Assembly: GCA_031285625.1 (NCBI GenBank)
Contig: JAITVV010000086.1
Span: forward strand, 1-38,042
Reading direction: 5' to 3'
DNA: 38,042 nucleotides
Origin: Prevotella sp.
GTDB lineage: Bacteria; Bacteroidota; Bacteroidia; Bacteroidales; Dysgonomonadaceae
Shown: piece by piece, positions 10,660-11,160 of the stretch
How positions within the stretch are numbered: position 1 is the first letter of the stretch
Layout of the letters: each line of letters begins with the position of its first letter
Notes under the pieces: generated by a model
What the model was told of the DNA's origin: nothing
The model's input: only the letters and a program-made list of their open reading frames with translations
Databases searched by the model: none
Made by a program: the position numbers and the translations under genes

Positions 10660-11160
10660 TTAGTTAAGCACTTTTTGGTCTTGAATGTTATATCTTTTAA
10701 AAAATTCAATGCCTGAAAACATTTCATAAACTACTTTCACAAGCGGTTGAAAAAATAAAAAAGAGAGACAAATATTGAAGACAACAAGCAATAATACTTC
10801 ATCTTTTCTTTCAAGGCATTGAATTCTTAATTTACTGACTATATCTGATTGATAAATCTTGGGGAAACAAGTGTTAAATTGACATAAATCCACACAACAC
10901 TTGCTTTTGTATCTAAAAAAGATTATAATACTACGCATGCGCAGAATTATTGTACACATATATGTGTATGTAATACAGCATCTAATAAATAAGAAAAACT
11001 GATTTATTAGATGAATATTAAAAAATGGTAGTGACTTGTAGTAAGGTGATAAAGAAAAAGGAATTTCCTCTCTTTTGAAAAAATTAATTTTGTTTACTCT
11101 CTCTCTCTCTCTCTCTCTCTCTCTCTCTCTCTCTCTCTCTCTCTCTCTAGCAAAATACAG
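10660..11160 (-). other. stop-free leader frame between the repeat and the surface protein gene
   Basis: Reading the minus strand, one frame is open from just after a TAG at 11161-11163, through the (AG)26 tract, to a TAA at 10660-10662, only 12 bases before the surface protein ATG. The part after the repeat is 145 codons, long for such AT-rich DNA. The encoded sequence is rich in Phe, Ile and Cys and resembles no protein I know, so it may be only a translated leader. In this assembly the frame has no good start of its own before the repeat; an ATG at 10957-10959 would give 99 aa. It joins the 11234 start only when the repeat number is 1 mod 3 (25 or 28 units). Confidence 0.35.

Follow-up and report, generated by a model that had tools for sequence, protein, structure and literature searches.

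The (AG)n tract at 11097-11148 of the window, which is the whole stretch of 38,042 nucleotides that was analysed, is most probably the switch of a phase-variable leader (attenuator), in which slippage would set the reading frame and a predicted terminator would be crossed or not. A leader frame switch set by tract length had been proposed in the initial annotation, and the proposal is supported by a conserved leader ORF, by the frames downstream of the tract, and by the recurrence of this arrangement, all read from sequence. The membership in a multi-locus family, the predicted terminators between tract and gene and the precedent in Streptococcus gallolyticus are additions to that proposal.

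The tract and its surroundings in the window

Tandem Repeats Finder described 11097-11148 as a repeat of period 2 with 26.0 copies and 100% matches, bearing out the twenty-six uninterrupted CT units first reported there. A first-order chain fitted to the window predicts about 2e-26 such runs in 4.84 Mb, so the tract is no chance run. It is long and pure, and its unit length is not divisible by three, features that it shares with slipped-strand contingency loci. The features around the tract, in the order of the minus strand, are:

11347-13893, minus strand: S9 peptidase gene upstream of the leader (ORF list, family match)
11319..11352, minus strand: hairpin at the end of the S9 peptidase gene (inverted-repeat scan)
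11268..11298, minus strand: predicted promoter, TTTG (-33), 19-nt spacer, TATCTTTG (-7), 10/10 consensus match
11149..11234, minus strand: leader ORF before the tract, MLFLSKVTNITNIDFIFSIENLEVSCILL, its last codon ending inside the tract (ORF conservation, 83 non-redundant loci)
11097..11148, minus strand: (AG)26 on the coding strand, translated (Glu-Arg)n; its length fixes the downstream frame (Tandem Repeats Finder, frame arithmetic)
11094..11096, minus strand: stop at n=23, 26 (the assembled state) and 29, predicted OFF (frame arithmetic)
11084..11086, minus strand: stop at n=24, 27 and 30, predicted OFF (frame arithmetic)
10660..11096, minus strand: predicted ON-frame leader extension (n=22, 25, 28) of about 145 codons (frame arithmetic, shuffles)
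10979..11013, minus strand: stem-loop within the leader, 15-nt arms, without a U run after it (inverted-repeat scan)
10809..10824, minus strand: 5' arm of a large-loop terminator-like stem of 16 bp (stem prediction)
10704..10719, minus strand: 3' arm of the same 16-bp stem (stem prediction)
10699..10703, minus strand: U run directly 3' of the terminator-like stem (sequence)
8722..10647, minus strand: proposed switched gene, a 641-aa 'QVTIGS'-type protein with a signal peptide recognised by eye (ORF list)

The predicted promoter agrees in every position with the Bacteroidota-type consensus TTTG-N19-TATCTTTG and is located upstream of the leader ATG at 11234, so the tract is plausibly transcribed. 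The leader appears to be transcribed as a separate unit, since a hairpin closes the S9 peptidase gene upstream of it. Three inverted repeats of at least 12 nt were found in 10600-11400, and no pair flanks the promoter.

The minus-strand ORF from the ATG at 11234 reaches the tract, as had been stated, and the accompanying frame arithmetic proved exact for n=22 to 30. The ORF ends at 10660-10662 for n=22, 25 and 28, leaving a gap of 12 nt between the end of the extension and the ATG of the surface gene. This extension is longer than expected by chance (p=0.005, the floor of 200 shuffles). The stops of the other two frames (n=26, 27) lie within 13 nt of the tract, and the window copy, at n=26, is in a closed frame and predicted to be OFF. 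The terminator-like stem of 16 bp encloses an 89-nt loop with inner hairpins, and the n=25 frame traverses it entirely. As a terminator it is atypical, with an unusually long loop and a short U run.

In the proposed mechanism, transcription would start upstream of the ATG at 11234, and ribosomes would translate the conserved leader peptide and next the (Glu-Arg)n repeat. A slip of a single AG unit in living cells would give a new reading frame past the tract. In the ON state (n=25, 28, and so on), translation would cross the terminator-like stem and stop 12 nt before the ATG of the surface gene; ribosomes in this frame should prevent terminator folding and reach the gene start. In the OFF state (n=26, 27, and so on), they would stop within 13 nt of the tract, the terminator could fold, and the surface gene would be silent. 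Ribosome-driven antitermination of this kind would be expected to act on the level of the surface protein.

The 641-aa protein showed no Pfam or NCBIfam match at E<=0.01, and its structure model was poor (mean pLDDT 40.8). Rfam gave a sole match in 8500-13900, MicX, with 23.9 bits against a cut-off of 75, which was taken as chance. Elsewhere in the window, the ORF at 24504-25850 (plus strand) possesses a very long, serine-rich C-terminal half.

Related tracts in the genome, the genus and the order

The genome of the window, which is Dysgonomonas-type, harbours eight long (AG)n tracts of 21 to 37 units, including the window copy. Leader and tract were found together at six further places in a search with the window leader and gene. 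The seventh further tract (C96) lacks the leader core, and the tract of C86 is interrupted by a T, giving about 14 and 19 units.

In the genus, AG tracts of at least nine units are present in 17 of 25 genomes, with 112 matches and up to 15 per genome. From the other genus genomes, 95 of 103 tract matches were taken in; the eight omitted were near a contig end, inside or adjoining an included locus, or simply not picked. Loci L305 and L306 stand outside all analyses, and L307 entered the fixed cut-off frame test only. Across 84,980 species genomes, the exact pattern of leader core plus AG occurs in 34 stretches, titled Dysgonomonas, Dysgonamonadaceae, 'Prevotella sp.' (one isolate, the rest MAGs) and Bacteroidia PG1894_40. 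Order-wide, the pattern with up to three mismatches is present in 4 of 393 genomes, namely three of the four sampled members of the window's genus and G053, a genome of a different family with 26 pattern matches. Plain AG tracts of nine units occur in 53 of the 393 genomes.

Ninety first genes behind the tracts, each cut at 420 aa, were scanned for protein families. Forty-eight match the TonB-dependent receptor plug, two are sigma-70 factors, and 25 carry a 'VTIG' motif near the N terminus. The tracts before sigma-70 factor genes are those of L117 and L137, the latter identified by our own reading of the sequence; such genes behind tracts could render whole regulons phase-variable.

Tract length differs in 12 of the 13 paralogue or orthologue pairs in which both flanks are similar (63-97% identical upstream and 75-97% downstream; 16 rows, the pairs being partly dependent on each other), although 3 of the 13 rest on lengths near 10 units of the type seen in G006. 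The many lengths near 10 in G006 suggest tract collapse in the assembly. At L121 (G003), near-identical leaders about 3 kb apart, with flanks 97% and 94% identical, carry 22.5 and 29.5 units. All tract lengths come from assemblies, with one genome per species, and are possibly distorted.

Several loci were unusual in themselves. In G019, a 5.2-Mb single-contig assembly, two AG tracts are giant as assembled, with 156 units at L193 and about 125 at L199, the latter adjoining masked N. In G006, the 19 nt that follow the tract are identical in two distinct leaders (L139, L141), and the L141 contig stops there; this is either a misassembly or the product of recombination between leaders at their AG repeats. 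The leaders L240-L272, whose AG tracts mostly have 2-8.5 units, are possibly locked copies.

Reading frames, terminators and the leader peptide

Downstream of the tracts, one frame is longer and another shorter than expected. In 87 UTR entries, a few loci being present twice, the longest frame covers 0.656 of the UTR compared with 0.308 in shuffles (combined p of about 3e-35, with partly paralogous loci treated as independent, as in the other tests), and the excess reaches p<0.05 in 42 of the 87. The shortest frame covers 0.027 of the UTR against 0.046 by chance. In 25 of 91 loci, the end of the longest frame falls between -45 and +25 nt relative to the gene ATG; a simpler block shuffle, from which N-containing UTRs were omitted, predicts about 4.0.

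Of 92 UTRs (with L072 entered twice), 54 have a predicted intrinsic terminator upstream of the gene, compared with 0.1% of shuffles. Large-loop terminators scoring at least 26 were found in 10 of 36 remaining UTRs, against 1.4% in shuffles. The hairpin is reached by one frame in 25 of 53 terminator loci and by two in 28, so that in the latter ON and OFF need not follow one frame in three. In none of the 53 do zero or three frames reach it; the expectation from shuffles is 29.8 loci for zero frames and 0.7 for three. A change of tract length is thus predicted to shift the leader stop from before the hairpin to within or past it in 53 of 53 loci, as between n=26 and n=25 in the window. Of the 81 frames that reach the hairpin, 48 have their stop inside it.

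Pure translational coupling or polarity, acting by re-initiation at the gene start or through Rho with intrinsic terminators only secondary, is possible, if rather doubtful, as an account of these loci. It agrees with ON frames that often end at or overlap the start codon, including 7 of 91 Dysgonomonas loci with an overlap of +4 (among them L196, N-masked in the copy counted), and with the absence of a classical hairpin in 36 of 89 loci. Against it stand the strong enrichment of terminators and the many SusC-type loci whose open frames stop inside the hairpin or shortly beyond it, long before the gene.

Similar frame arrangements were found with other repeats and leader peptides. G008, a further genome of the window's genus, lacks AG tracts of nine units and has 12 (AC) matches instead (L293-L304), with different leader peptides and a frame logic like that of the AG loci. 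In all 12 loci, one frame runs for 226-1810 nt while the other two stop by 26 nt, and in seven of the 12 the long frame ends as ATGA on the gene start, which also fits coupling. In G156, which represents a different genus of the family, the 18 (AG) matches have a leader mostly of the form ..LTNIS..NNLNFNYLGL.MCVEIL (an exception, L308, has ENLEV), and a terminator is present in 16 of the 18, mostly before secreted 'QVGINT' genes. The leader of G053 is close to that of the window, and its long frame overlaps or enters the gene in several loci.

With fixed cut-offs (one frame of at least 200 nt, two of at most 60 nt), the pattern was found in 18 of 18 loci of G053 (0.68 expected), 10 of the 10 in G008 with enough N-free sequence (0.46 expected) and 15 of 18 in G156 (0.56 expected). 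Only 38 of 96 Dysgonomonas AG loci show it (1.61 expected), and G359 is a weak fit with 2 of 7 (0.13 expected). The AG tracts of G179, G074 and G211 gave 1 of 16 (0.45 expected), so the frame-switch kind does not include all AG tracts of the order. The same frame logic with (AG)n, (AC)n and different leader peptides suggests strong selection.

The frame is closed at present in 71 of 81 one-long-frame loci, taken from Dysgonomonas, G053, G008 and G156 with the longest open frame upstream as the leader frame; chance alone would leave a third of them open. Of the 53 terminator loci, 36 have a current frame that extends to the hairpin, so a bias to OFF is not general.

The leader itself is conserved as a coding sequence, with a consensus close to M..K.QN......SIFS.ENL.VSCILL(ER)n and a length of 29 aa in the window and most often 27 aa among the loci. 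The leader ORF test kept 91 of 107 tracts, those with 200 nt upstream, the core's ATTTG present and no N nearby, which gave 83 non-redundant loci; leaders of other kinds (L074; L191) stand outside it. Between -80 and -33, stops account for 3 of 1328 codons in the Glu-Arg frame, compared with 105 of 1245 and 70 of 1245 in the other frames. Upstream of the leader ATG, the same frame is back at background (89/1245). Between -100 and -60, 78 ATGs are in frame compared with 4 and 5 in the other frames, and 78 of the 83 loci have an in-frame ATG upstream of -40. Third codon positions in the leader core appear about as conserved as the others (logo, by eye), so a constraint at the nucleotide level is present as well.

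This conservation bears on two further readings. An mRNA or DNA element that acts through its length, such as a 5'-UTR rheostat, H-DNA, an R-loop or a protein-binding purine tract, would make the frame irrelevant. The (AG)n repeat is indeed a polypurine tract in a leader, and uspA2-type UTR tracts are known, but such an element is unlikely given the in-frame conservation of the ORF, the open and closed frames beyond the tract and the same frame logic with (AC)n in G008. Our first reading saw a promoter in the conserved block upstream of the tract, with a transcription start inside the repeat, and is in keeping with the strong nucleotide conservation. It was dropped and is now very unlikely, as the frame and ATG test shows that the block is coding and its ATGs and stops obey one frame; a consensus promoter was moreover found further upstream. 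Across the loci, promoter-like TTTG/TAnnTTTG pairs scoring at least 9 of 10 were present in 26 of 85 leaders, compared with 5.2 in shuffles.

A functionless microsatellite arising by chance or assembly is hardly credible, even if assemblers mishandle such repeats, because the leader core precedes 94 of the 102 tracts with enough upstream sequence, the (AC)9 tracts (4 of 25 genus genomes, just 3 matches outside G008) and (AT)9 tracts (8 of 25, 19 matches on both strands) of the genus are scarcer than the 112 AG matches, and the leader ORF conservation and the hairpin-frame result in 53 of 53 loci contradict it.

We somewhat favour a wider reading, in which several Bacteroidales lineages would carry genome-wide sets of repeat-controlled attenuator cassettes with lineage-specific dinucleotides and peptides, the one-long-frame copies being mostly OFF and surface combinations being sampled randomly. 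Each cassette would consist of a promoter, a leader peptide, a dinucleotide tract, early stops and a terminator, placed before unrelated surface genes. If so, a population would sample combinations of glycan receptors and surface proteins at random.

Comparison with known phase-variation systems

Contingency loci of Neisseria, Haemophilus and Campylobacter consist of pure simple sequence repeats that change the frame with each unit, affect surface proteins, and occur at many loci in each genome. The tracts described here are similar in all four respects. The tracts of those genera lie mostly in the gene itself or in the promoter, whereas here the tract lies in a separate leader ORF before a predicted terminator.

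In Bacteroidota, DNA inversion is the main known route of phase variation, and Bacteroides possesses recombinase-driven invertible promoters and SusC/SusD inversion. The loci described here share with these systems the SusC-type surface proteins and the order. In contrast to Bacteroides inversion, no inverted-repeat pair in 10600-11400 surrounds the promoter at 11268-11298. In a 2025 review, which names these inversion systems, the Bacteroides passages are mostly on inversion, and the available text gave no match for leader peptide, attenuation, gallolyticus or terminator (PMC11868660). A tree-of-life survey from 2025 describes a high repeat density in Bacteroidota, with Dysgonomonas unmentioned in the available portions (PMC12699852). 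Among the titles and abstract openings of the literature matches listed, with subscription papers and preprints mostly outside the scope, none concerned a repeat-driven switch in Bacteroidota, and the literature search found no paper on phase variation in Dysgonomonas.

The closest likeness is to the pil1 and pil3 pilus loci of Streptococcus gallolyticus, which, in the passages available, are described as phase-variable through GCAGA repeats and leader-peptide attenuation, with a switch that depends on translation and on the terminator (Danne et al. 2014, PMC3894217). In pil1, the repeats lie in a leader ORF, their number decides where the leader stops, and a stem-loop terminator is located between leader and surface genes. 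Similarly, the tracts described here lie inside a conserved leader ORF, and a predicted terminator separates leader and gene in most UTRs and, as the large-loop stem, in the window. Expression is high when the pil1 leader stops inside the hairpin or close to it (PMC3894217), and the same logic is proposed here. The match is one of mechanism, drawn from the available description of pil1 and not from a sequence comparison.

The differences from that description are several. In S. gallolyticus the repeats are GCAGA pentamers at two pilus loci of a Gram-positive bacterium, whereas here they are dinucleotides in Bacteroidales, and tract matches number as many as 15 in one genome of the genus and 18 in G156. 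The genes behind them encode mostly SusC-type receptors and secreted proteins, the leader peptides differ, and ON frames often continue to the gene start. The mechanism is probably of a kind known from S. gallolyticus, here in a dinucleotide, multi-locus, Bacteroidales version. A set of frame-switched attenuators for SusC-type receptors and secreted proteins would add a second, sequence-readable phase-variation system in Bacteroidota. As ON and OFF would be predictable from repeat length alone, long reads of a colony or metagenome could reveal the surface state of gut bacteria of this kind.
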